A stretch of DNA of 64,000 bases from Nocardiopsis eucommiae (GTDB lineage: Bacteria > Actinomycetota > Actinomycetes > Streptosporangiales > Streptosporangiaceae). Both the position numbers and the translations under genes were made by a program. The stretch spans positions 2,108,001-2,172,000 of the forward strand of contig CP074402.1 of assembly GCA_018388625.1 (NCBI GenBank), written 5' to 3'. Positions 23,099 through 40,119 of the stretch are shown one piece after another (the first letter of the stretch is position 1; each line of letters opens with the position of its first letter). Below the pieces are notes generated by a model. It made no database searches. It was not told the origin of the DNA and was given only the letters and a program-made list of their open reading frames with translations.

Positions 23099-24332
23099 GC
23101 TTCGACCAGCTCTGGGCCGACCTGGCTCCGGTGGGGCGCTCCGCCGACAGCGGCGGCTACCACCGCCACACCTGGGCGGGCGCCGACACCGACGCCCGCG
23201 CCTGGTTCACCGAGGCGGCCGCCGCCCGGGACCTGGACGTGCGCACAGACCGCAACGGCAACCTCTGGGCCTGGTGGGGCACGCCCGGTCCGGGCGCCGT
23301 GGCCACCGGCTCCCACCTGGACTCCGTGCCGGATGGCGGAGCCTTCGACGGTCCCCTCGGGGTGGCCAGCGCCCTGGCCGCCGTGGACGAGCTGCGCGCC
23401 CGCGGGTTCACCCCGCGCGGCCGCTGGTCCTGGGCGTGTTCGTCGAGGAGGAGGGCGGCCGGTTCGGGGTGCCCTGCCTGGGCAGTCGCCTGAGCACCGG
23501 GGAGATCGACCCGGCACGCGCGCGGTCCCTCACCGACGCCTCCGGTGTCACCTGGGAGCGGGCCATGGCGGGGGCGGGGCTGGACCCCGAGGCGATCGGA
23601 CCCGACCCCGCGCTCCTCTCCTGGCTGGACGTGTTCGTCGAGCTGCACGTGGAGCAGGGGCGTGCCCTGGAGGACACCGACCACGCCGTGGGTGTGGCCA
23701 GCGCGATCTGGCCGCACGGCCGGTGGCGGATGGACTTCCGGGGCCGGGCCGACCACGCGGGCACCACCCGCCTGGAGGACCGCGCGGACCCCATGCTCCC
23801 GTTCGCCCACACGATCCTGGCCGCCCGCGCCCTGGCCGAGCGGCACGAGGCCCGGGCCACCGTGGCCAAGGGCCTCATCACCCCCAACGGCACCAACGCG
23901 ATCCCCTCACTGGTCAGTGCCTGGCTGGACGCCCGCGCCGCCGACCGCGCCGCCCTGGAGTCGGTGGTGGAGGGCGTACGGGAGGCCGCCGACCGGGCCG
24001 CCCGCGACCACGGGGTCTCGCTCGCGATGACCGCCGAGTCCACCACGCCCCTCGTGGAGTTCTCCCACGACCTCCGCGACCGGCTCGCGGGGATCGTGGG
24101 CGGCCGCGCCGCCGAGTCCGCGGGCCCGGTCCCCGTGCTGCCCACCGGGGCCGGGCACGACGCCGGTGTGCTCTCCGCTCACGTGCCCACGGCGATGCTG
24201 TACGTGCGCAACCCGACCGGGATCTCCCACTCCCCGCAGGAGTGGGCCCGCCCCGAGGACTCCCACGCCGGGGTCCTCGCCCTGGCGGACGTTCTGGCCG
24301 ACCTGCTCGCCGTGCCCGGAGGGACGCGGTGA
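23095..24332 (+). CDS. M20-family amidohydrolase (allantoate amidohydrolase-like) of the hut operon, frame broken once
   Basis: GTG 23095 starts [20 protein letters not shown]. The zinc-site blocks of the allantoate/carbamoyl amidohydrolase subgroup are present: [74 protein letters not shown]. One base is missing near 23430; repair gives 412 residues. Streptomycete hut clusters have the same gene between hutU and hutF, and because no canonical HutG is visible, I infer that this enzyme removes the formyl group from N-formylglutamate. Annotated names such as allantoate amidohydrolase reflect similarity only. Confidence 0.85.
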
Positions 24333-25688
24333 CGGGGCCGCGCCGGTACTGGTGCGAGTGGGCGTGGCTCGGCGGCGCGGCACCCGAACCGGGGTGCTCC
24401 TCACCGTGGACGGCGCCGGACGGCTGGCCTCGGTCGTGGCGGGGTCCGCCCCGGACGGCGCCGAACGCCTGCCCGGCCTCACCCTGCCCGGTCTGGCCAA
24501 CGCCCACTCGCACGCCTTCCACCGGGCGCTGCGCGGCCGCACCCACACGGACGGCGGCTCCTTCTGGACCTGGCGCGAGGTGATGTACCGGGCGGCCGCG
24601 CGCCTCGACCCGGACTCCTACCTCCGCCTGGCCCGGGCCGCCTACGCCGAGATGGCCCTGGCCGGGGTCGCCTGTGTGGGCGAGTTCCACTACCTGCACC
24701 ACGGTCCCGGGGGCGGCCCTACGCCGACCCCAACGCGATGGGAGAGGCCCTGGTCGAGGCCGCCGCCGACGCCGGGGTACGGATCACGCTGCTGGACGTG
24801 TGCTACCTGTCCGGCGGGTTCGCGGAGGACGGCACCCACCTGCCCCTGACCGGTCCGCAGCTGCGCTTCGGTGACGGCACCGCCGACGCCTGGGCCGCGC
24901 GGGTCGGCGCCTTCGCCCCCTCGGGGAGGCACGCCCGGGTGGGCGCCGCCGCGCACTCGGTCCGGGCGGTCCCCGCCGCCGACCTGTCCACCGTCGCCGG
25001 GTTCGCGGACGCGGGCGGGCTGCCCCTGCACGTCCACGTCTCCGAGCAGCCCGCCGAGAACGCCGCCTGCCTGGCCGCCCACGGAACCACCCCGGTTCGT
25101 GTGCTGGCCGATGCGGGGGCGCTCACCGAACGCACCACCCTGGTGCACGCCACCCACCTCACCGACGCCGACGTGCACACCGTCCGTGACCACGGGTCCG
25201 CCGTGTGCCTGTGCCCGACCACCGAGCGCGACCTGGCCGACGGTCTGCCGCGCACCGGTGACCTCGTGGCCGCCCCACACCCGATCCCGCTCAGTCTGGG
25301 AACCGACCAGCACGCCCAGCTGGATCTGTTCGAGGAGGCCCGTGCCGTGGAGCTGCACGAACGCCTGCGCACGCACCGCCGGGGCACCCTGGGCAGCGGA
25401 GAGCTGCTGCGCGCCGCCACCGTCGACGGCCACGCCGGACTCGGCTGGCACGACGCCGGGACCCTGGTCCCCGGCGCCCGCGCCGACCTGGTCAACGTGT
25501 CCCTGGACCACGTGCGTCTGGCCGGGGCCGACCCCGCGCGCGCCACCGACGCCGTGGTCTTCGCCGCCACCGCCGCCGACGTGCGGCACGTGATGGTGGA
25601 CGGGGAGTGGACCGTCCGCGACGGCGTGCACGTCCGCCTGCCCGACACCGCCCGAGAACTCGACGCCGCCATCAAGGAGCTGCTGTGA
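24329..25688 (+). CDS. hutF: Formimidoylglutamate deiminase, frame broken twice
   Basis: HutF deiminates N-formimidoylglutamate to N-formylglutamate and ammonia. GTG 24329 overlaps the previous stop by 4 bases. The amidohydrolase-fold metal ligands are visible: [40 protein letters not shown] and [20 protein letters not shown]. Breaks at about 24385 and 24715 are each explained by one missing base; repair gives 453 residues, normal for the family. Its presence with hutI shows that this operon uses the formylglutamate branch of histidine breakdown. Confidence 0.92.
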
Positions 25689-26913
25689 CCCCGACCGGCC
25701 CCGACGCCACGCCCGCGACCCCCGGCACGATCCTCGTCGACGCGATCGGCACCCTGGTCACCAACGACCCGGAGGTGGGGGAGGGGCCGCTGGGTGAGAT
25801 CGGCGACGCCGCCCTCGTGATCGAGGACGGCCGCGTGGTCTGGGCGGGACCGCGCGCGCAGGCGCCCGCCGCGGACGCCCGGGTGGACGCCGCCGGGCGC
25901 TGCGTCCTGCCGGGGTTCGTGGACAGCCACTCCCACATCGTGTTCGCGGGGGACCGCAGCCGCGAGTTCGCCGCCCGGATGAGTGGCACCCCGTACTCGG
26001 CGGGCGGTATCCGTACCACGGTGGCGGCCACCCGCGCCGCCACGGACGCCGAACTCCTGGCCGGGGCCCGACGGTTCGTCCGTGAGGCGCAGGCCCAGGG
26101 CACCACGACCCTGGAGGTCAAGTCCGGATACGGGCTCACCGTGGAGGACGAGCGCCGCTCCCTGGAGGTGGCCGGTCGGGTCACCGACGAGGTCACCTTC
26201 CTGGGCGCCCACGTGGTCGCCCCCGAGTACGCTGACGACCCGACCGCCTACGTGGACCTGGTCACCGGTCCCATGCTGGACGCCTGTGCCCCGCACGCCC
26301 GCTGGGTGGACGTGTTCTGCGAGCGCGGGGCCTTCGACGAGGGGCCTCCCGCCGGGTGCTCACTGCGGGGATGGCCCGTGGGCTCCTGCCCCGCGTCCAC
26401 GGCAACCAGCTGGGTGAGGGGCCCGGGGTCCGCCTGGCGGTGGAGCTGGGGGCCGCCTCCGTCGACCACTGCACCTACCTGTCCGGTGAGGACGTGGACG
26501 CCCTCGCGCAGGCCGCCAAGCGTCCCGAGCCCACGGTGGCCACGCTGCTGCCCGGGGTGGACTTCTCCACCCGCCAGCCCTACCCGGACGCCCGTTCCCT
26601 CATCGACGCGGGCGCGGTCGTGGCCCTGGCCAGCGACTGCAACCCGGGTTCGTGCTTCACGTCCAGCCTGGCCTTCTGTATCGCGGTGGGCGTGCGGGAC
26701 ATGGGTATGACCCCGGACGAGGCCGTGTGGGCGGCCACCATGGGTGGGGCGCTGGCGCTGCGCCGCGACGACGTCGGACGCCTCTCACCGGGGGCCCGCG
26801 CCGACCTCACGCTGCTCGACGCCCCGAACCACCTCTACCTGGCCTACCGTCCCGGTGTGCCCCAGGTGGCGGCGGTCTGGAAGGACGGCGCCCTGGTCTC
26901 CGGCCAGCCGTAG
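25685..26913 (+). CDS. hutI: Imidazolonepropionase, frame broken once
   Basis: HutI opens the imidazolone ring to N-formimidoylglutamate. GTG 25685 overlaps the hutF stop by 4 bases. Metal-site and substrate motifs are present: [58 protein letters not shown] and [11 protein letters not shown] base is missing in the GGGG run at about 26343 ([10 protein letters not shown]); repair gives 409 residues. It closes the operon and is followed by a small convergent hairpin. Confidence 0.94.
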
Positions 26914-28751: not shown

Positions 28752-30069
28752 TCAGGCTCCCGGCTCCCGGGTTCCCGGGCCCTCGGGGGCGGCGAACAGG
28801 ACCAGGGCCAGGGCGGCCTCGCGGGGGACGGTCGGATCCAGGCCGGTCGCCTCGCGGAAGGCCTGGAGCCGGTTGACCACCGTGTTGCGGTGGCAGTAGA
28901 GCGAGGTCGCCGTCTCCTTGACCGATCCCGTCGCCGCGTAGTGGGACAGCGTCTCCACGAGCCGCGCGCGGTGCTCGGGGTCGAGTCGTTCCATGCCGCG
29001 CAGGTGCTCCCGGCCGAAACCGGGCAGCGCCTCACGGATCCGGTCGCGCGCCAGGGCCGACCACGCACGCGACTCCTGGACCAGCTCACCAGGGCGGGCG
29101 TAGCGGGCCAGCACCCGGGCGGCCTCCACCGCGGCCGGAACCGACGCCAGGCCGTCCGCCCCGGACACCCGCCCGCCGTTCACCTCCCGGGGAGGGGCGG
29201 CCACCCCGCCCCGCCGCTCTCCCGGACCAGCGCGGTGCCCTCGTCGAACTCCCAGGTGAGGCACGGGTCGTGCTCGCGGTCCCGGACCAGGCGCCGCCAG
29301 GCCTCGGCCCTGGGCAGGCCGGTCACGAAGGCCACCTCGAACCGGCCCCGCTCGGGCAGGCCGAGGGTGCCCGCCACCTCGGAGGCCACCTCGGCGGCCC
29401 GGTCCCCGGCGTTCAGCAGACGGGAGAGGGCCTGCGCGGTGAGCGCGCGGGAGTCCCGCAGCAGTACGGCCTGTTCCTCCAGGAAGGCCACCTGCACGTC
29501 ACCGATGTAGCGCTCCACGATGGTGAGGATCTCCTCGGCGTGCTGCACGAGGACGTCCGCCGAGCCCGCCCCTCCGGCGCGCGCCAGTCCGGCCCACAGC
29601 ACGCGGAAGTCGAGCCGGACCGCCTCCAGCAGCCGTTCGCGCGCGACCCCTGGCGGGCCCGGCGCCTGCCGAGCCGTACGGGCAGCCCGACCAGGTGGGC
29701 GGGGAGCGGCTGGCCCGCGATCTGGCGGATGAGCATGTCGAGGGTGTCGCTCGCGGTCGCGCGCAGGTCGGTGTCGGGCACCGTCCGTTCCCGGTACCCG
29801 CCGAGGCCGTCCAACCGCCGCAGGAAGTCGTCCACCAGGGCCTCACGGTCGGCGGCCAGCAGCGCGAGCGTGCGGGCCCAGGCTTCGGCGTCGGCACCGT
29901 CGGGCACCGGCTCGTGCTCGGAAACGTTACGCCCCGGCGACATGGCGGAAACACCAGTCTCCGGGGTCGGGCGCGGGGCGGCCTCGGCGTCCGAATCCGC
30001 CTCCACCAGGGAGTTCCGGGGGCGTTCGGGGTCCCGGTCGGGTCCGTCCGGTGACATGGCACTGTGCAT
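28752..30069 (-). CDS. PucR-family transcriptional regulator, frame broken twice
   Basis: From 30069 (MHSAMSPDG; 30057 is an alternative) the product has a variable N-terminal part, a GGDEF-like central region (RFEVAFVTGLPRAEAWRRLV) and the C-terminal PucR/CdaR helix-turn-helix LSHYAATGSVKETATSLYCH, RNTVVNRLQAFREATGLD. Missing bases at about 29640 and 29200 explain two frame shifts; repair gives 439 residues. PucR-type regulators activate purine, amine or aromatic catabolism with an intracellular inducer. It is divergent from the transporter operon at 30185 and is its likely regulator. Confidence 0.88.
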
Positions 30070-30184
30070 TCGCACAGGGTAGCGGCGCAGAGCGTGGATG
30101 AATGCCGATTGATCCCCACCCACCACACCAGCACCATGAAGGCGAGACAAACGCGCTGTTTCCACAGCTCAAACGGAGACCCTC

Positions 30185-31551
30185 ATGACCGCAAGCCCCA
30201 GCACCCCCACCGGTGTCGACCCCTCCTCGGGCCCGGCCCGACTCGAACCGGCGAAGATGCGGAAGATCGCCACCGCCAGCGTCATCGGCACCACCGTCGA
30301 GTGGTACGACCTCTTCCTCGTCGGCACCGCCTCCGCCCTCGTCTTCAACCAGGTCTTCTTCCCCGACCTCGACGGCGCCGTCGGCACCATCCTGGCCTTC
30401 CTGACCTTCGCGTCGGCCTACGTGGCACGAACCGCGGGCGCGGTCCTGTTCGGGCACTTCGGCGACCGCCTGGGCCGCAAGTCCATGCTGCTCATCTCCC
30501 TGATCACCATGGGCGTGGCCACCGTCGCCATCGGCCTGGTCCCCGACTACCGCGCGATCGGCGTCGCGGCCCCGCTCCTGCTGCTCACCCTGAGGCTCAT
30601 CCAGGGCCTGGCCCTGGGAGGCGAGTGGGGCGGCGCGGTCCTCATGACCGTGGAGCACGCCCCGGTCCAGCGGCGCGGCTGGTACGGCTCGCTGGTGCAG
30701 GTCGGCGTGCCCGTCGGCACGCTCCTGGCCAACCTCGCCTTCCTCGGCGTCCTGGCCTCGGTCGACCACGAGGCCTTCCTGAACTGGGGCTGGCGCGTGC
30801 CGTTCCTGATGTCCGCGCTGCTCGTGGGCGTGGGCATCTACATCCGCCTGCACATCGAGGAGACCCCCAGCTTCCAGCAGGTCAAGGACCAGGGCGCCAA
30901 GGCCAAGCTCCCGTTCGCCCACCTGATGCGCAACTACTGGAAGCAGGTCCTGCTCGGCGGCGTCGCGACCCTGTCGACCGGGTCCACGTTCACGCTCCTG
31001 GTCACCTCCGGAGTCAACTACGGGACCACCGAGCTGGGCCACTCCGAGAACCTCATGCTGTGGGCCGTGCTGGTCGCCTGTTCCCTGGCGTTCGTGGCCA
31101 TCCCCTTCTTCGGCCGCCTCTCCGACAGCCTGGGCCGCAGGCCCGTGATCCTGGCCGGAGTGGCCGCCGAGGCGCTGCTGGCCTTCCCGTTCTTCTGGAT
31201 GCTCGACTCCGGGTCGGTGCCGCTGCTCTTCGTCGCCTACGCGATGATGATGCTGGCCTTCTCCGCGAACTACGGCCCCATCGCGACCTTCCTCGCCGAA
31301 CAGTTCGGATCCAAGATCCGCTACTCCGGGCTGTCCGTGGCCTACATGCTCTCCGGCCTCCTGGGCTCCGCCGCCACCCCCGCCGCCACGGTGTGGCTGC
31401 TGTCCGTGTCCGGGCAGAGCTCCTCGATCGCCTGGTACATCGTCGCCGCGTCGCTGCTCTCGCTCGGCGCGCTGCTCCTGCTGCGCTCCTCGCGGGCGGC
31501 AGCAGGTTCGACGAGGCCGAGGTGGACGCCGACGTCCGGAAGGCGGTGTGA
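30185..31551 (+). CDS. MFS transporter, metabolite:H+ symporter (MHS) family, frame broken once
   Basis: ATG 30185 follows ACGGAGACC. The 12-helix protein has the MHS signature near the N-terminus (IGTTVEWYDLFLVGTASALV), the loop GHFGDRLGRKSML and RLIQGLALGGEWGGAVLM. MHS proteins take up organic acids, betaines or aromatics with protons. The frame shifts near 31490 and ends as GSRFDEAEVDADVRKAV at 31551, giving about 455 residues; the uncorrected frame runs through two more genes. It heads a six-gene catabolic operon and presumably imports the substrate. Confidence 0.9.
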
Positions 31552-31949
31552 CGATGACCCCCGTCCGTATCGAAGCGGTCGACGGCCTCGCCGCACCCGT
31601 GGGCGCGTTCTCCCACGCGGTGGTCGCCCACGGCTTCGTGTACACCTCCGGGCAGCTCCCGGTGGACGCCACCGGAAGCGCCCCGGACACCTTCGCGGAA
31701 CAGCTCACCCGCACCCTCGGCAACCTCCGCACCGTCCTGGAGGCGGCGGGCAGCTCGCTCGACCACGTGGTCAAGGTCAACGGCTACCTCACCGACCCCG
31801 ACCACCTCGACACCTACAACCGGGTCTACCGCGAGGTGTTCGGGCACACCCTCCCGGCCCGCACCACGGTGTGCGTCTCCCTGTGGGGCGTCGCCCTGGA
31901 GATCGACTGCGTGGCGGTCCTCGCGCACCGCGGGAGGGGAGCCCCGTGA
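31548..31949 (+). CDS. RidA (YjgF/YER057c/UK114) family protein
   Basis: GTG 31548 overlaps the transporter stop by 4 bases; ATG 31554 is an alternative. The 133-residue product has the conserved blocks GFVYTSGQLPVDATG, LRTVLEAAGSSLDHVVKVNG and the C-terminal PARTTVCVSL with the substrate-binding Arg. RidA proteins hydrolyse enamines/imines to keto acids; some members act as dedicated steps of catabolic routes. The frame is intact. Confidence 0.93.
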   Translation: MTMTPVRIEAVDGLAAPVGAFSHAVVAHGFVYTSGQLPVDATGSAPDTFAEQLTRTLGNLRTVLEAAGSSLDHVVKVNGYLTDPDHLDTYNRVYREVFGHTLPARTTVCVSLWGVALEIDCVAVLAHRGRGAP

Positions 31950-32578
31950 CTGAACCCGGCTCCGACACGCGGACGGCCGCGCTCCTGGCCGCCTTGGCGG
32001 ACGTCGAGATCCCCACCCTCGGCCACGTGCTGGAGGAGGGGTTCTGCGACTCCGGCATCCGCCGCCTGACCCCGGTGCCCAGGATGGCCGGGGTGGCGCA
32101 CACCGTCCGCCTGGCCACTCCCGACGCCCTCGCGGTCAACCGTGCCCTGGTCGGCCTCGCCCCGGGCGGGGTCCTGGTGGTCGAGGTGGTCGGCGGGGCG
32201 CACGCGCCCGTCGGGGCGGTCACCGTCGCCGCCGTGGTCGCCCGGGCCGGTGCGGGCGTGGTCGTGGACGGTCCCGTCACCGACCACTCCGCCCTGGCGG
32301 AGAGCGGACTGCCCGTCTACGCCCGGGGCACCACCTGCCGCACCACCAAGCGCCTGGGCACCGCCCTCGACGGGGTCGGCGCGCCCGTCACCGTGGGCGG
32401 CGTCCGGGTGCGCGGCGGGGACGTCGTCCTCGGTGACGAGAACGGGCTGCTGGTCCTGGACCCGCACACGTTCGACCCCGTCCTGGCCGAGGACGCCCGC
32501 CGCTCGGACCGGGCCGAACCGGAACTCCTCGCCCGCATCCGCGCCGGGGAACCGCTCGAAGGCCTCCTCGCCCTCTGA
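31946..32578 (+). CDS. RraA-like protein (HMG aldolase / oxaloacetate decarboxylase fold)
   Basis: GTG 31946 overlaps the RidA stop by 4 bases. The 210-residue product carries DVEIPTLGHVLEEG, PGGVLVVEVVGGAHAPVGAV, VVVDGPVTDHSALAESGLPV and VLGDENGLLVL, a RraA/MenG-type core. Members of this family act on 4-hydroxy-4-methyl-2-oxoglutarate, oxaloacetate or related acids; the usual G-x-R-D motif reads DGPVTD here (normally DGxxRD), so the position of the conserved Arg is altered and the reaction is uncertain. The frame is intact. Confidence 0.82.
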   Translation: MTEPGSDTRTAALLAALADVEIPTLGHVLEEGFCDSGIRRLTPVPRMAGVAHTVRLATPDALAVNRALVGLAPGGVLVVEVVGGAHAPVGAVTVAAVVARAGAGVVVDGPVTDHSALAESGLPVYARGTTCRTTKRLGTALDGVGAPVTVGGVRVRGGDVVLGDENGLLVLDPHTFDPVLAEDARRSDRAEPELLARIRAGEPLEGLLAL

Positions 32579-32637
32579 CCCGCCGGCACCCGCGCCACCG
32601 CCCCCGCCCCGACACCACAAGGAAGGCCCCACCCACG

Positions 32638-34310
32638 ATGTCCACCACAGGCCCCGCGCCGACGGACGCCGCCCGCTCCGCCGGTCACCTCATCGTCGCC
32701 CAGCTCGAACACGAGGGAGTCCGGCGCGTCTACGGGGTGCCCGGGGAGTCCTACCTCGACGTCCTCGACGGGCTGTACGACTCCGCCGTCACCACCGTGG
32801 TCACCCGCCACGAGGGCGGCGCCGGGTTCATGGCGCTGGCGGAGGGGCGGCTCACGGGTCTGCCGGGCGTGGCCATGGTCACCCGGGGGCCCGGCGCGGC
32901 CAACGCCTTCGTCGCGGTGCACACCGCGTACCAGGACGCCACCCCGCTCCTGCTGTTCGTCGGGCTGATCCCCGTCGCGGACCGGGGCAGGGAGGCGTTC
33001 CAGGAGTTCGACCTGACCGGGTGGTTCGGCAGCACGGCCAAGAAGGTCGTCACGCTCGACGACCCGGCGTCCGCCGCGCGGGTGGTCTCCGAGGCGGTCC
33101 ACACGGCGCGCTCCGGCCGCCCCGGTCCCGTCGTGATCGGTCTGCCCGAGGACGTCATCCGGGTCCGGGTGCCCGGTGGAACCGTGGTGGAGCCGCGCAC
33201 CGCCACGACCGGCCGCCCCTCCGCCGAGGCCGTGGCCGAGGTCGTCGCGCGGGTCGACCGCGCCGAGCGGCCCGTCATCGTGGTGGGTGGCGAGTCCTGG
33301 ACCGACGCGACCGGCGCCGCGCTCACGGCCTGGGCCCGCGAGCGCCGGATCCCGGTGCTCGCGGACTTCCGCGCCTACGACGCCGTGCCCCACCGGGTAC
33401 CGGGGGAACCGAGCCCCTACGCGGGCTCCCTCGGTTACGGCCGCGCCGACGCTGCGGCCGCCCTCTTCGACGGCGCCGACCTGGCCCTGTTCGTGGGCAC
33501 GGCCCGCACCGACGTGCTCAGCGACGGCTACACCCTGGGCGGCGACGCCGAGACGATCCTCGTGCTTCCCGGTGACCCCTCGGCCACAGCGGACGCGTCG
33601 ACCAGCACCTGGCCGCCGCCCCCGCCGGGTTCGTCGCCGCGCTCACCGAGCACGGCGACGAGGCCGTCCGGCACGACGCCGACCGGATGGAGCGGGCCCG
33701 CGCCTCCCACGAGGCCTTCTCCACTCCCGAACCCGAGGGGACCGCCGACACGGAGGACGGTTTCGTCGACCTCACCGCCGTCATGGCGGTGCTGCGGGAG
33801 GAGCTCGACGGCGACGCCGTCGTCACCTACGGCGCGGGCAACCACGCGCTCTGGCCCGCCCGGTACCTGGAGCACCGCTCCAGCGGCTCCCTCCTCGCCC
33901 CACGCAACGGCGCCATGGGCATGGGCGTCCCGGCCGCCGTCGCCGCCTCCCTCGTCCACCCCGGGCGCCAGGTGGTCTCCGTGGCCGGGGACGGCTGCTT
34001 CCTCATGAACGGCCAGGAGATCGCGACGGCGGTCGGCTACGGCGCGTCCTTCGTCGTGATCGTCGTGGACAACGGCGTCTACGCCACCATCCGCGAACAC
34101 CAGGAACACCACTACCCGGGGCGTCCCTCCGGCACCCACCTCACCAACCCCGACTTCGCCGCGTTGGCCCGATCCTTCGGCGGGTACGGAGAGACGGTGT
34201 CCACCACCGCCGACTTCCGCGCGGCCCTGCTCCGCGCGCGCGAGAGCGGCGGCCCCGCCGTCCTGCACCTGAGACAGGATCCCGCGGTCCGGTCTCCCTC
34301 CGCGTCCTGA
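32638..34310 (+). CDS. ThDP-dependent 2-oxoacid decarboxylase/acetolactate synthase-like enzyme, frame broken once
   Basis: ATG 32638 starts the product. The N-terminal PYR domain has VYGVPGESYLDVLDGLYDS, VVTRHEGGAGFMALAEGRLT with the cofactor-activating Glu, and MVTRGPGAANA. The C-terminal PP domain has SVAGDGCFLMNGQEIATAV and VDNGVYATIREHQE, the Mg-ThDP motif. One missing base at about 33590 explains the shift; repair gives 557 residues. The family includes benzoylformate decarboxylase, acetolactate synthase and glyoxylate carboligase. Next to an aldehyde dehydrogenase, a decarboxylase producing an aldehyde from a 2-oxo acid is the best guess. Confidence 0.85.
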
Positions 34311-34351
34311 CCGCCCGCAGCCGACACCACCGTACGAACAGGGGACGACCC

Positions 34352-35660
34352 ATGCCCACCAGCCGACCGACCACCGAGCCGACCCCGGCGCGGGACGAGG
34401 CCGACCAGCGCTTCCTGGACGACTTCGCGACCATGAGCACCTTCGGGGCCACCCCCGAGGGGGCGTGGACCGCCAGGCCGCCACCGAACCCGACAACGCC
34501 CAGCGCCGGTGGTTCGCCTCCCTCATGGAGGAGAACGGCCTGCGTGTGGTCTACGACCGGATCGGCAACCAGTTCGGGCTGCTGGAGCGCGTCCCCGGTG
34601 CCCCCTACGTCGTCGTCGGCTCCCACATGGACTCCCAGCCCACCGCCGGTCGCTTCGACGGGGCCTACGGCGTGCTCGCGGCGGCGCACGCCGTGTTCCG
34701 CGTCGCTGCCGAGGAGCCCGCCCCGGCAGCCCCACCCGCGCACAACCTGGCCGTGGTCAACTGGTTCAACGAGGAGGGCTCCCGGTTCGAGCCCTCCATG
34801 ATGGGCAGCGCCGTGTACACGGGCAGGCTCGACCTGGAGACCGCGCTGGCCACCCGCGACCGGGCCGGGATCACCGTGGCCGAGGCGCTGGAGCCCACCG
34901 GGTTCCTGGGTGACGGCGACGGCCCCCAGCCGTCTTCTGCGCCGAGATCCACATCGAGCAGGGCCGGGTCCTGGAGGACTCCGGTTCCACGATCGGTCTG
35001 GTCAGCGCGTCCTGGGCGGCCAGCAAGTACGAGATCACCGTGCACGGGGAGCAGTCACACTCCGGGGCGACCGTCATGGCGGACCGTCGTGACGCGCTCC
35101 TGGGCGCCTCCCGCCTGGTCGTCGCCGCGCGGGAACTGGCGGACGCCTTCCCCGGCACCCTGCACACCGCCGTGGGAAAACTGGACGTCTACCCGAACTC
35201 ACCGGTCGTGGTGGCCTCCCGGGTCACGCTCCTGCTGGACCTGCGCTCACCCGACGAGGACGTGCTGGCGCGGGCCAACGCCCTGCTGCTGGAGCGCGTG
35301 GCCGGGATCGAGGCGGAGAGCGGGGTGACCGTGGAGCGGCACCTGTCCCACTCCTGGGGTGTCAACCCCTACCAGCCCTCCGGCGTGGAGCTCGCCCGCA
35401 CCAGCGCCGAACGCCTCGGGTTGAGCAGCGAGCCCATCATGACCGTGGCCGGGCACGACTCCATCAACATGAAGGAGCACGTCCCCACCGTGATGCTCTT
35501 CGTGCCCTCCGTCAGCGGCGTCTCGCACAACGTCGGAGAGTTCACCGAGGACGCCGACCTGCTCGCCGGGCTGGAACTGTTCACCGACGTGACCCGCCGC
35601 CTGGGCGCGGGCGAGCTCGGCCCCGCCACCACCTACGTCCCCGGAGAGGACCGTTCGTGA
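34352..35660 (+). CDS. M20-family N-carbamoyl/allantoate-type amidohydrolase, frame broken twice
   Basis: ATG 34352 starts MPTSRPTTEPTPARDEADQR. Zinc-site motifs are VVVGSHMDSQPTAGRFDGAY, NWFNEEGSRFEPSMMGS, EIHIEQGRVLEDSG, HGEQSHSGATVMADRRDALL and MTVAGHDSINMKEHVP. Missing bases at about 34470 and 34940 explain the two shifts, giving 436 residues. The enzyme should hydrolyse an N-carbamoyl, ureido or similar amide and release an amine for the RidA step. It is a distant paralogue of the hut-operon M20 enzyme at 23095. Confidence 0.87.
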
Positions 35661-37023
35661 CCGACTACGCCGTCACCGACCCGACCACCGGCCGTGTGGT
35701 CCGGCGCTTCCCCACCGCCACGGAGGCCGAGGTCGACGCCGCCGTCGCCGGGGCCGCCGCCTCCTTCCGGGACTGGCGCCGCCGCCCGGTGGCCGAGCGC
35801 GCCCGCTTCCTGGCGGCCGCGGCCGAGCTCCACCGCGAGCGGCGCGACCATCTCGCGGCGATCATCACCCGGGAGATGGGAAAGACCACCGCCGAGGCGC
35901 TGGGTGAGGTCGACCTGTGCGCCGACATCCACGACTACTACGCCCGCAACGCCGCCGCGTTCACCGCCGACCGCGCCCTGGACGTGGCCGAGGGGTCCGC
36001 GATCGTGCGGACCGAACCGATCGGCGTCCTGATCGGCATCATGCCCTGGAACTACCCGTACTACCAGGTGGCGCGGTTCGCGGCCCCCAACATCGCGCTC
36101 GGCAACACCGTGCTGCTCAAGCACGCGCCGAGCTGCCCCGAGTCGGCGGCGGCGATCGTCGACCTGTACGCCGACGCCGGACTGCCCGAGGGCGTGTACA
36201 CCAACCTGTACGCCACCGAGGAGCAGGTGGCGCGCATCATCGAGCACCCGGCGGTGCAGGGGGTCTCGCTCACCGGGTCGGAGCGGGCGGGCCGGGCCGT
36301 CGGCGCGCTCGCCGGACGCGCGATGAAGCGGACCGTCCTGGAACTGGGCGGGTCCGACCCCTTCATCGTGCTGGCCGACGCCGACCTCGACCGGGCGGTG
36401 GACGCCGCCGTGGCAGGCCGCATGGGCAACGCCGGACAGGCCTGCACGGCCGCCAAGCGGATCATCGTGCTGGACGAGGTCCACGACGCCTTCGTGGCGG
36501 CCTTCGTGGACCGGGTCGCGGCCCTGCGGGTCGGCGACCCCGCCGAGGAGGGGAACGACCTGGGGCCGCTCTCCTCGGAGACGGCCGCGCGCCAGGTGAT
36601 CGGGCAGGTGGAGGACGCCGTGGCCCACGGGGCGACCGTGCTGACCGGCGGCGACCGGCCGGACCGCGACGGGGCGTTCGTGCGGCCCACGGTCCTCACC
36701 GGAGTGGCTCCCGGAACGCGTGCCTACCGGGAGGAGATCTTCGGACCGGTCGCCGTGGTGCACCGGGTCGGGTCCGTCGACGAGGCGGTCGAGCTGGCCA
36801 ACGACACCCCGTACGGGCTGGGCAGCGTGGTCTTCGGCGCGGACGAGAAGGCGGCGCTGGCCGTCGCCGACCGGCTCGACGTGGGCATGGTGTCGGTGAA
36901 CGCCCCTCACGCACCCAGGCCGACCTGCCGTTCGGCGGGGTGAAGGCCTCCGGGATCGGCCGGGAGCTGGGGGAATACGGCATGGCGGAGTTCGTGAACC
37001 GCAAGCTCCTGCGCGTGCCGTAG
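35657..37023 (+). CDS. NAD(P)-dependent aldehyde dehydrogenase (succinate-semialdehyde type), frame broken once
   Basis: GTG 35657 overlaps the previous stop by 4 bases. Visible motifs are [20 protein letters not shown], the Rossmann loop [13 protein letters not shown], the general-base motif [13 protein letters not shown] and the catalytic cysteine in [10 protein letters not shown], plus [10 protein letters not shown]. One base is missing at about 36910 (VSVNAPH to [14 protein letters not shown]); repair gives 455 residues. It most resembles short succinate-semialdehyde dehydrogenases. It closes the operon and oxidises the aldehyde presumably made by the ThDP enzyme. Confidence 0.92.
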
Positions 37024-37031
37024 GGCGCGCA

Positions 37032-37083
37032 CGCGAACGGGGGTCGGCGGGCACCAGCGTGCCCACCGACCCCCGTTTCGCGG
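37032..37083 (+). terminator. Strong terminator at the end of the catabolic operon
   Basis: Bases 37037-37054 pair with 37059-37076 (18 bp, one mismatch, loop CAGC), and the flanks CGCGA/TCGCG extend the stem with one bulge. A short TTT run follows the main stem. Confidence 0.85.
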
Positions 37084-37508: not shown

Positions 37509-37985
37509 ACGAACGCGGAAACGGGTGATGAGACCGGTTTCCGTGATGGGTCGGGGTCGCCCCGAAGCCTAGCGAAGTCGGAGGGGTCATCGCGCCGTCC
37601 GGTGGCGCGTGTGGCCCGGATGACCAGGCGGTCCATTCGGGTGACGATCCGTGATCCCGGTCTCCGTCGCGGGGCGCGGGCCTTCCGGGAACCGTTTCGC
37701 TACGCCGTTCCGTCCTTTCGTGTTCCGGTCCCGTATTCGTTCCAGCCGATTTGTGTATTTGGTGAACACGGCGCGGGGTCCGTGGTTAGTGTGAGTCCCA
37801 TTCAGGGGTGAGGGGACGTCCGGTGACGGAGACGGGCCGCCCCGGGAAACCGGCCGTCGCGCCCCGTGCGGCGCGCGCCGAGGGAAAGGCCGGGTCCGTG
37901 GGGGAACGGATTCGGCGGCACACACAAGGGCCCCGCGTGCGCGGGGTGGATTCTCCGTGTTCGGGGGACACTCGTGGTCGAGTAC
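37509..37985. other. Intergenic region between divergent Lsr2-like and DUF485 genes
   Basis: About 480 bases with no supported gene. The stretch 37680-37800 is poorer in G+C than its surroundings and ends in GTTAGTGTG, a possible -10 region for the symporter operon. A short G+C hairpin (CCCCGCG/CGCGGGG) occurs at about 37931-37947. Confidence 0.35.
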
Positions 37986-38408
37986 ATGGAAGGCACGTCC
38001 AGAGGCCGTGGTGGTGACGCTGGGGAACCGCTCCGCGCCGGAGGCGGACCGGCGCGCGGTCGGGGCGGTGCGGAGAGGGCGCACGCGTGTGAACGCGTCT
38101 CCGTCGACCCGCGATTCGTGAAACTCCGAAGGAGATTCGCACTTCTGTCCTGGGCGGTGGTCGCCATCTTCCTGCTGAGTTACCTTTCCTATCTCCTCCT
38201 TTCCGCCTACGCGCGCGATTTCATGAGTGTGCGGATCACCGAGTCCGTCAACGTCGCCATGGCGATGGGGGTCGGGCAGTTCGCGCTCACCTTCGCGCTC
38301 GCCTGGGCGTACGGCCGTTTCTCCGCCCGCGCCATCGACCCCCTCGCGGAGGAGATCCGCGACCGTGCCCGGGCCGAGGAGACCCTCGACGGACGGGTGG
38401 CCGCCTGA
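37986..38408 (+). CDS. DUF485 membrane protein, partner of the SSS symporter
   Basis: With ATG 37986 the product is 140 residues; similarity begins near DPRFVKLRRRFALLSWAVVA and continues LSYLLLSAYARDFMSVRI and FALTFALAWAYGRFSARAID, the two-helix DUF485 pattern (YjcH). The first 45 residues are low in similarity and rich in Gly/Arg, so a later start is possible. DUF485 genes precede actP-type acetate/cation symporters; the stop here overlaps the symporter start by one base (TGATG). Confidence 0.85.
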   Translation: MEGTSRGRGGDAGEPLRAGGGPARGRGGAERAHACERVSVDPRFVKLRRRFALLSWAVVAIFLLSYLSYLLLSAYARDFMSVRITESVNVAMAMGVGQFALTFALAWAYGRFSARAIDPLAEEIRDRARAEETLDGRVAA

Positions 38409-40119
38409 TGGACACCGTCCTGCTTCCGTTCACCACCGCGCTCGACGGCCGGATCGAGGCCGCGCACGCCTGGACCATCGGCCTGTGCGCGGTGTTCGTC
38501 CTGGTCACCCTCGCCATCACGATCCGCGCGCGGCGCACCACCAGGGGCGCCGTCGACTTCTACGCCGGGGGCGCGGCTTCTCCAGCACCCAGAACGGCCT
38601 CGCGCTGACCGGCGACTACCTCTCCGCCGCGTCCTTCCTGGGTATCGCCGGGATGATCGCCCTCCAGGGCTACGACGGCTTCCTGTACTCCATCGGCTTC
38701 CTGGTGGCCTGGCTGCTCGTGCTGCCCATGGCCCAGCTCACACGCAACACCGGCCGCTTCACCATGGCCGACCTCCCCGCCTTCCGCATGCGCCGGATGC
38801 GGGTGCGCCTGGCGTGCACGGTGTCGACGGTCACCGTGTGCGTGTTCTACCTGGTGGCGCAGATGGTGGGGGCGGGCGCCCTGGTCTCGGTCCTGCTCGG
38901 CCTGCACGACGGCGGCACCGTCCTGGGCCTGGACGCGGGCCGGGTCCGCACCGGCGCCATCGTGCTCGTGGGCGTGCTGATGATCGTCTACGTGATGTAC
39001 GGCGGGATGAAGGCGGCCACCTGGCTCCAGATCATCAAGGCCGTGGTGTTGCTCACCGCGACCGGACTGCTCACCGTCCTCGTCCTGGCCCTGTTCTCCT
39101 TCGACCCGCGCGCGCTGCTCAGCGGGGCGGCCGAGGCCAGCGGCCACGGACAGGCCTTCCTGGAACCCGGACTGCGGTTCGGCGTCGAGGTCCCCGGAGA
39201 CGCGGCCCGGACGCTCTTCAACAAGATGGACCTGGTCAGCCTGGGTCTGGCACTGGTGCTGGGCACCGTGGCCCTGCCGCACATCCTCATCCGCTTCTAC
39301 ACGGTGACCGACGGGCGCGCCGCCCGCTCCTCGGTCAACCGCACCATCGCCCTGGTGGGCGCCTTCTACCTGATGACCCTCGCCCTGGGGTTCGGCGCCG
39401 CCGCCCTGGTGGGGTCCGAGCGCATCACGGCCCTGGACCCCTCGGGCAACTCCGCCGTCCCCCTGCTCGCGGAGGAGGTGGGCCGCAGGGCCGCAGGGCC
39501 GGTGGGCGCGGCCGTGCTGCTCGCGCTGATCTCCGCCGTGGCGCTGGCCACCATCCTCGCGGTGATCGCCAGCCTCACCCTGGCCTCGTCCTCCTCGATC
39601 GCGCACGACCTGTTCGGCCACATCCTCATGTGGGGGCGTCCGCGCGAGTCCCAGGAGATGGGGGTGGCCCGCTTCTCCGCGTGTGTGATCGGCGCTGTCT
39701 CCATCGCCCTGGCGGTGGGCGCTCAGGGTCAGAACGTGGCCTTCCTGGTGGGGCTGGCCTTCGCGATCGCGGCCGCCGCCAACCTGCCGGTCATCGTCCT
39801 CACCATGTTCTGGCGCCGCTTCAACACACGGGGCGTGGAGTGGGGGATCTACGGCGGCCTCTCCGCGACCCTGCTGCTGATGCTGTTCTCCCCGGTGGTG
39901 TCCGGCAACACCGACCCCGTGACCGGAGAGAACCTGTCGATCCTGCCCGCCTGGATCGACATCCAGGTCTTCCCCATGGAGAACCCGGCCCTGGTGGCCG
40001 TGCCGATCGGCTTCGCCTGCGCGATCGTCGGCAGCCTGCTCTCACGGGAACGCGACAGCGCGCGCTTCACCGAGCTGCGGGTGCGCTCGCTCACCGGGTG
40101 GGGCGCCGACCGCGACTGA
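38408..40119 (+). CDS. Solute:sodium symporter, ActP-like (acetate/monocarboxylate), frame broken once
   Basis: ATG 38408 starts MDTVLLPFTTALDGRIEAAH. One base is missing in the GGGGG run at about 38570, inside the family motif that should read GRGFSSTQNGLALTGDYLSA; repair gives 570 residues. About 13 transmembrane helices follow, with LVGVLMIVYVMYGGMKAATW and SASFLGIAGMIALQGYDG-type blocks of the SSS family. With the DUF485 gene it forms the usual yjcH-actP pair, probably importing acetate or a similar short acid. Confidence 0.9.

Follow-up and report, generated by a model that had tools for sequence, protein, structure and literature searches.

A conserved catabolic operon of Nocardiopsis eucommiae with a possible role in the degradation of ureido-bearing 2-oxo acids

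What compound is broken down by a six-gene operon whose enzymes match no named pathway that we could find? The question is raised by a locus of Nocardiopsis eucommiae that lies in a 64,000-nucleotide stretch of DNA (hereafter the window; positions 2,108,001–2,172,000 of contig 1, CP074402.1, of a 6.1 Mb genome). In this locus, genes for a major facilitator superfamily (MFS) transporter, a RidA-family protein, an RraA-like protein, a thiamine diphosphate (ThDP)-dependent enzyme, an M20 amidohydrolase and an aldehyde dehydrogenase (ALDH) follow one another, and the gene of a PucR-family regulator diverges from them. This is a real, conserved and uncharacterised catabolic operon. From the gene content, conservation, linkage and motifs that were observed, we infer every substrate and the order of every step. 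Our preferred reading, for which we would put the chance slightly below even, is an accessory catabolic module, probably PucR-controlled, for a C5 2-oxo acid with an omega-ureido group. The most likely substrate would be 2-oxo-5-ureidopentanoate, the 2-oxo acid of citrulline, and relatives may use the guanidino form, 2-ketoarginine, instead.

The genes of the operon were named by Pfam and NCBIfam models run on pieces of the window. The MFS gene (30185–31551, plus strand, end approximate) is of the metabolite/H+ symporter type; its best model was TIGR00883 (396 bits, cut-off 443), while the shikimate transporter model gave 322 bits (cut-off 538). A transporter of this type would be compatible with the import of an organic acid, but is not diagnostic of it. 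On the same strand follow the genes for the RidA-family enamine/imine deaminase (31548–31949; PF01042, 1.1e-27), the RraA-like protein (31946–32578; PF03737, 1.9e-24), the ThDP-dependent enzyme, a probable 2-oxo-acid decarboxylase of the NF006052/PRK08199 subfamily (32638–34310), the carbamoylase-type M20 amidohydrolase with the signature GHDSINMK (34352–35660), and the GabD/Sad-like ALDH (35657–37023; PF00171, 1.8e-135). The PucR gene (28752–30140, minus strand, start uncertain) was matched by HTH_30 at 28755–29261 (6.6e-15). An earlier note on this DNA had described the same genes, with an import gene, a carbamoylase-type M20 enzyme, a ThDP enzyme beside an ALDH and control by PucR, and all of this agrees with the models and the divergent regulator gene; what it missed are the frame breaks described below. 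Its statement that the genes are coupled by 4-base overlaps holds for three of the five junctions (GTGA at MFS/RidA, RidA/RraA and M20/ALDH), but RraA/ThDP and ThDP/M20 are spaced by 59 and 41 nt. The strong terminator that it placed at the end of the operon was confirmed as a hairpin at 37036–37077 (plus strand, −38.8 kcal/mol), a probable terminator although its tail is TTT only. Because nothing more than TTT comes after it, this hairpin is absent from the T-rich consensus scan, which gave no promoter and one terminator-like site, located elsewhere, roughly the level of the shuffled sequence. No RNA family was detected in the Rfam scan.

Several genes of the operon are broken in the window. 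In tblastn comparisons with relatives, the reading frame was interrupted in the genes for the MFS transporter (after about 31444, near the 3′ end), the ThDP enzyme (about 33577), the M20 enzyme (about 34455 and about 34929), the ALDH (about 36905) and PucR (at least twice; the pieces between 29844 and 28824 match the PucR of locus L111 in three frames), and none of the ThDP, M20 and ALDH genes is spanned by a single frame. Breaks in all five genes could mean that the operon is a decayed relic, pseudogenised in this strain, but we give this only a slim chance, as the pieces are still 83–94% identical to the copy in locus L044 (94% for the MFS gene at 30185–31444; 90% and 83% for the ThDP pieces). 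Sequence error is the likelier cause, because the copies in relatives appear to be intact and splits are also seen elsewhere in the same genome (G000), for example in GabT and in other RraA-like genes. Together with a listed completeness of 84%, the split genes suggest an indel-prone assembly. The analysis went on with the copies of relatives, chiefly the intact ThDP and M20 genes of L044.

The operon is conserved beyond this strain. The order MFS, RidA, RraA-like, ThDP, M20, ALDH is kept in L009, L010, L011, L044 and L111, and the same six genes occur rearranged in L008 and L050; these seven are the loci with all six genes in a ThDP-led set of 81 (80 found, less L066, plus L090 and L111). In this set, the 42 loci whose ThDP enzyme is at least 50% identical to the intact copy carry M20 (34 loci), MFS (35), PucR (33), RidA (22), RraA (22) and a YtcJ-type amidohydrolase (25), while the remaining 39, with less than 50% identity, have M20, RidA and RraA in none, YtcJ in five and ALDH in two. 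In L111, the operon is accompanied by a PucR 67% identical to the C-terminal part of the window protein; in L044, a search for PucR gave nothing convincing. Among named organisms, the closest match of the searches was Nocardiopsis ganjiahuensis (ThDP enzyme, 90%). Among 40 genomes of the genus, including its own, a ThDP relative at E 1e-60 or better was present in 35, and the close type (at least 84% identical to the L044 copy) in three (its own, G012 and G038), the rest having 38–42% identity; the operon is accessory in the genus. In a spread of 396 genomes across the phylum, four, including its own, passed E 1e-120, and the other three matches had 46–49% identity.

The M20 enzyme belongs to a distinct clade. 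In the M20 tree, 79 rows stand on one side of the starred branch (99/93), and the signature GHD[SA]xN[MLV]K is present in 77 of them (the exceptions being L050, with NMN, and L039, with NLR) and in none of the 15 rows outside. The sister clade (L110, L112, L192–L201) mostly has GHDSVAMN; neither ThDP nor YtcJ was found in the loci of it that were read, and in L110 and L112 the M20 gene has, by eye, an amidase gene and a LysR gene as neighbours. To counter the bias of the ThDP-led set, an M20-led search was run within one order (396 genomes, of which 52 had a match), and all 59 listed places were fetched, some of them repeating loci of the first set. The signature was found in 48 of the 59. A PRK08199-like ThDP enzyme (identity down to 44%) accompanies it in 29 of these loci, a YtcJ-type protein in 22 and either of the two in 41; PucR is present in 35, MFS in 36, the window type of ALDH in 12 and an ArgE-like gene in four. 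The 11 loci without the signature have no ThDP, YtcJ or PucR gene, and three have MFS; one of the 11 (L191) is a contig of only 4.7 kb. Three modules can be told apart: M20 together with ThDP, to which ALDH is often added; MFS-RidA-RraA, which is divergent in Arthrobacter (L013–L017, L021, L022 and L090); and the YtcJ-type amidohydrolase, often with MFS. The window operon holds the first two.

The most informative loci for the substrate were those in which the usual partners of the M20 enzyme are replaced. Both the PRK08199-like ThDP enzyme and YtcJ are missing from seven of the 48 signature loci, and in four of these (L156, L184, L186 and L189) an arginine-deiminase/dimethylargininase-like gene lies within 7 kb of M20. 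The two genes overlap in L184 and are adjacent in L189; in L186 they are separated by 3.8 kb and are on opposite strands, and in L156 they are separated by 6.6 kb and share a strand. The remaining loci of the seven are L168 and L180, both near contig ends, and L154, which has no recognisable ThDP gene. The deiminase-like gene was tested with PF02274/PF19420 in three of the loci and recognised in L189 by 61% identity; in the three scanned proteins every NCBIfam score was well below its curated cut-off. The Glu, His and Cys columns, which we take to be the active site of the arginine-deiminase superfamily, are kept in all four. In the tree, the M20 enzymes concerned are found apart from one another, in four places (four changes, possibly some of them gains and others losses); as several of their rows are long, the exact positions are unsure. 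A reverse search of the same 396 genomes returned five such proteins in four genomes: those of the four M20 loci (three genomes) and a fifth, truncated by the edge of its contig, from a genome in which M20 is present too.

In its gene content, L184 has the look of a pathway. It carries the ALDH and an AruI-type ThDP enzyme on one strand and M20 with the deiminase-like gene and a small helix-turn-helix/cupin gene on the other, and also PucR, a gamma-aminobutyric acid (GABA) transaminase (688 bits, cut-off 639) and an ALDH of the succinate-semialdehyde dehydrogenase (SSADH) type (536 bits, cut-off 646). Its M20 and ALDH are 56% and 51% identical to the window types, while its SSADH-type ALDH is 39% identical to the window ALDH. 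The best NCBIfam model of its ThDP enzyme was 5-guanidino-2-oxopentanoate decarboxylase, at 448 bits under a cut-off of 500; the AruI-type enzyme of L189 scored above that curated cut-off (541). In L189, one strand carries ATP-binding cassette (ABC) transporter genes (by eye), the AruI-type gene, the deiminase-like gene, M20 and a 2-hydroxyacid dehydrogenase. In L156, also on one strand, are the deiminase-like gene, ThDP, ABC genes, a 2-hydroxyacid dehydrogenase and M20; its binding protein is 28% identical to that of L189, and its best transport model was Lys/Arg/Orn (110 bits, cut-off 256). The Brevibacterium loci further contain amino-acid ABC genes and aminotransferases of class III. Their clusters (L033, L035–L037, L043 and L046) combine a ThDP gene with those of a YtcJ-type amidohydrolase and such an aminotransferase, some with Orn/Lys/Arg-decarboxylase-like genes (L033, L035–L037), amino-acid-type ABC genes or proline-racemase-family genes (L035, L037). 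In Nocardiopsis eucommiae itself, a split GabT-like gene is 62% and 53% identical to the GabT of L184.

These neighbourhoods led to the following scheme. If a guanidine-modifying enzyme repeatedly joins M20, the latter should act on a ureido group, and if a 2-ketoarginine-type decarboxylase, the window type of ALDH and GABA genes are its neighbours, 4-ureidobutyrate is the ureido acid to be expected. RidA would clear an imine or enamine formed en route to the 2-oxo acid; the ThDP enzyme would decarboxylate 2-oxo-5-ureidopentanoate to 4-ureidobutanal; the ALDH would oxidise this to 4-ureidobutyrate (N-carbamoyl-GABA); and the M20 enzyme would cleave off the carbamoyl group to yield GABA, CO2 and ammonia, with GABA then entering the ordinary GabT/SSADH route. 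In relatives, a dimethylargininase/arginine-deiminase-like enzyme, or perhaps the YtcJ-type protein, would first turn the guanidino into a ureido group. Since the Nocardiopsis operon has neither a deiminase nor YtcJ, a substrate that already bears the ureido group, the 2-oxo acid of citrulline, is the simplest choice for it; this is also the weakest step of the reading. A ureido-type compound had been suggested in the earlier note, and the guanidine-deiminase-like, AruI-type and GABA-transaminase neighbours in relatives fit it well; the order given there, with M20 first and the ThDP enzyme and ALDH later, is probably the reverse of the actual one. As a whole, we hold the ureido-acid scheme to be somewhat short of evenly balanced, and GABA as its specific end point is more doubtful, well on the lower side of even.

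The intact ThDP enzyme of L044 scored 564 bits with NF006052/PRK08199 (cut-off 539) and 205 bits with PRK07524, the 5-guanidino-2-oxopentanoate decarboxylase model (cut-off 500). With PRK08199 as its best NCBIfam model and no benzoylformate-decarboxylase model among the 25 listed, the mandelate-type acids considered previously were not supported. Decarboxylation is favoured over carboligation, because the Glu of RHEGG is kept in the alignment and an ALDH adjoins the ThDP gene in several more distant relatives. In another explanation, the ThDP enzyme would turn 2-oxoglutarate or a close relative of it (2-oxoglutaramate) into succinate semialdehyde, the ALDH would be an SSADH, and M20 would release the amino acid from a glutamate-type compound with an N-carbamoyl or N-formyl group. 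Taken alone, the ALDH would pass for an SSADH: its nearest solved chain is 3vz0, followed by SSADHs, which make up most of its nearest solved relatives. Moreover, the distant ThDP genes of L061, L062, L068 and L084 lie directly before an SSADH-like gene, which suits 2-oxoglutarate. These and other distant relatives (L073, L077–L079 and L083) are perhaps 2-oxoglutarate or 2-oxoglutaramate decarboxylases; in the second group PucR- and glutaminase-like genes precede the ThDP gene by eye, and, except in L073, an amino-acid-permease-like gene as well. As an account of the window operon, however, we find this explanation rather improbable. L184 has the window type of ALDH in addition to a separate SSADH-type ALDH with GabT, the guanidine-deiminase-like partners get no role, and M20 is absent from all 39 ThDP-led loci below 50% identity, a divide that is not clean, since ThDP enzymes of 44–49% stand beside M20 in L146, L165 and L176.

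The M20 enzyme allows two further explanations. The intact protein of L044 scored 283 bits with TIGR01879, the hydantoinase/carbamoylase family (cut-off 204), which would also be expected if the operon degraded an N-carbamoyl or N-formyl alpha-amino acid, perhaps derived from a hydantoin-like ring. M20 would then act first, after YtcJ as ring opener, an oxidase encoded elsewhere and RidA would yield the 2-oxo acid, and ThDP and ALDH would convert it to an acid one carbon shorter. An early action of M20 would suit 12 loci in which YtcJ and M20 occur without either ThDP type in the fetched stretch (L148, L151, L167, L171, L175, L177–L179, L181–L183 and L190). We nevertheless regard this as unlikely, as it leaves the deiminase-like partners and the GABA genes unexplained, and the six-gene set has no hydantoinase, which also speaks against the hydantoins proposed earlier. 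The same protein scored 429.5 bits with NF006772 (cut-off 424), a subfamily model labelled allantoate amidohydrolase, and a PucR regulator is present, as might be expected in purine catabolism, with M20 as allantoate or ureidoglycolate amidohydrolase and ThDP as glyoxylate carboligase. But the AllC equivalog gave 184 bits under a cut-off of 598, and the glyoxylate carboligase model PRK11269 gave 116 bits under 791, over the N-terminal half only. In addition, glyoxylate carboligase (Gcl) has Val at the position of the catalytic Glu, which the operon enzyme keeps. Judged by these two enzymes, with no search made for allantoinase or urate oxidase, allantoin degradation is highly improbable.

RidA and the RraA-like protein are harder to place. 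In RidA, PARTTV is aligned to PARSCV of 1xrg, so that the active-site arginine, which we take to be Arg105 of TdcF/RidA, is kept; the protein scored 88 bits with TIGR00004 (cut-off 106) and 46 bits with the RutC equivalog of the Rut pyrimidine pathway (cut-off 169), to which it was not assigned. The RraA-like protein shares PF03737 with the 4-carboxy-4-hydroxy-2-oxoadipate (CHA) aldolase/RraA family. In the CHA aldolase structure 3noj, however, the motif is VDAGVRD, with the Arg-Asp pair of RraA-type aldolases, and the window protein has VDGPVTD. Threonine replaces this arginine in all 22 other loci read, with the consensus V[DE]Gx[VA]TD, and for this reason the RraA-like proteins are unlikely to be normal aldolases.

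Several observations weigh against the ureido-acid scheme. RidA points to an imine, yet no oxidase or transaminase is in the six-gene set, and iminoarginine was, according to PMC5619798, a substrate of Rid2 and Rid3 but not of RidA or Rid1. The scheme assigns nothing to the RraA-like protein, and RidA and RraA are within reach in only one of the 48 M20-led signature loci. ThDP is not an obligate partner of M20, as the 12 YtcJ-M20 loci above make plain, and the ALDH and distant ThDP relatives lean to SSADH and 2-oxoglutarate. A common substrate of the operon ThDP enzyme and the AruI types is not shown by their homology, the window type sharing 28% identity with that of L189 along most of the sequence and 34% with that of L184 along about 160 residues. 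The deiminase-like evidence comes from four loci in three genomes, and no such protein was found in the phylum-wide draw of 396 genomes. The signature loci come largely from one genus, so that their counts are not independent events, and the scheme does not account for the PRK06837 ArgE-like deacylase genes that accompany part of the family. Finally, the Nocardiopsis operon set includes no transaminase, oxidase, YtcJ or deiminase-like gene, and elsewhere in its genome only weak deiminase-like relatives (33% over 119 residues; 23%) and a YtcJ relative of 31% were found. At G000:C1:3512374–3513318 (L209), a YtcJ-like gene (31–33%) adjoins an MFS gene 44% identical to that of the operon, and this pair may form a further module of the family.

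Known systems resemble the proposed ureido-acid route in part. The arginine transaminase route of Pseudomonas comprises AruH-AruI, KauB and GbuA. It shares with our scheme the decarboxylation of a 2-oxo acid by an acetolactate synthase-like ThDP enzyme, followed by an ALDH, to a C4 acid and GABA, and AruI-type enzymes stand near the same M20 clade in L184 and L189. It differs in that the Nocardiopsis ThDP enzyme belongs to another subfamily by the scores given above, no aminotransferase is among the six genes, and an M20 carbamoylase is in place of guanidinobutyrase; no guanidinobutyrase was found in the operon, all PF00491 matches of the genome being outside it. AguA and AguB, the agmatine deiminase and N-carbamoylputrescine amidohydrolase, remove a guanidino group in two steps, deimination and decarbamoylation, which is mirrored by the loci with a deiminase-like gene and M20. 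AguB is, however, a nitrilase-family enzyme, the substrate proposed here is a carboxylic acid and not an amine, and the Nocardiopsis operon has no deiminase-like gene. An N-carbamoyl-beta-alanine amidohydrolase of the M20 carbamoylase family has N-carbamoyl-gamma-aminobutyric acid among its reported substrates (PMC10952681), and such chemistry is therefore within the reach of the family. In comparison with that enzyme, the operon M20 belongs to the GHD[SA]xN[MLV]K clade and is linked to ThDP, YtcJ or deiminase-like genes.

Plasmid records were also read, in 13 regions from listings of 36 and 136 records. One Arthrobacter record (L090) carries the same family, with YtcJ and M20. The other ThDP regions have different uses, with HyuA/HyuB, dihydrodipicolinate-synthase-like genes, ALDH alone or others, and M20 adjoins ThDP in only one of those read (L088); L099 is an M20 match without an annotated ThDP gene nearby. 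L088, from P. phenoliruptrix, has a Lys/Arg/Orn ABC binding protein above its cut-off, a flavin adenine dinucleotide (FAD) oxidoreductase, RidA, ThDP, M20 and ALDH, with CtlX about 11 kb further on. Because its M20 (GHDAVHM) is without the signature, it is treated as an analogue built from other subfamilies and not as an orthologue. Plasmids of Pseudochrobactrum, Paracoccus and Rhizobium (L092, L096 and L098) have ThDP, HyuA, HyuB, a pyridoxal phosphate-dependent aminotransferase, an NAD(P) oxidoreductase and an FAD oxidoreductase.

On either side of the operon, the window holds other genes of catabolic appearance. Downstream (37866–40119) are, by eye, a small membrane protein and a sodium:solute symporter of the acetate-permease type. 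Upstream (23100–26913), M20 hydrolase-, HutF- and HutI-like genes, recognised by eye and BLAST only, are frame-broken as the operon is; a HutI-like gene (90%) is also found upstream in L044, at L044:10–1089. A link to histidine through these genes was set aside, as no HutI or HutF was seen by eye in L111.

The earlier note knew no named pathway with this gene set, and we likewise found no account of the six genes, no named pathway for them and no bacterial 4-ureidobutyrate route in the open-licence literature, which does not imply absence from print. We tentatively propose, with more doubt than confidence, a GABA-forming route not previously described. In it, 2-ketocitrulline or 2-ketoarginine would be decarboxylated and oxidised, and an M20 N-carbamoyl-GABA hydrolase would replace guanidinobutyrase, preceded in part of the lineages by a guanidinobutyrate deiminase with the arginine-deiminase fold or by YtcJ; the RraA-like protein of Nocardiopsis, which lacks the aldolase arginine, would have taken on another task, to form or open the 2-oxo acid. 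Given the link between M20 and the deiminase-like genes, a handful of compounds would be enough to address the substrate question. If the proposal is true, several poorly assigned families would gain a function (an M20 clade that models currently label allantoate amidohydrolase, the PRK08199 ThDP enzymes and the YtcJ-type amidohydrolase), and it would add a route from guanidine and ureido compounds to GABA in several actinobacterial genera.

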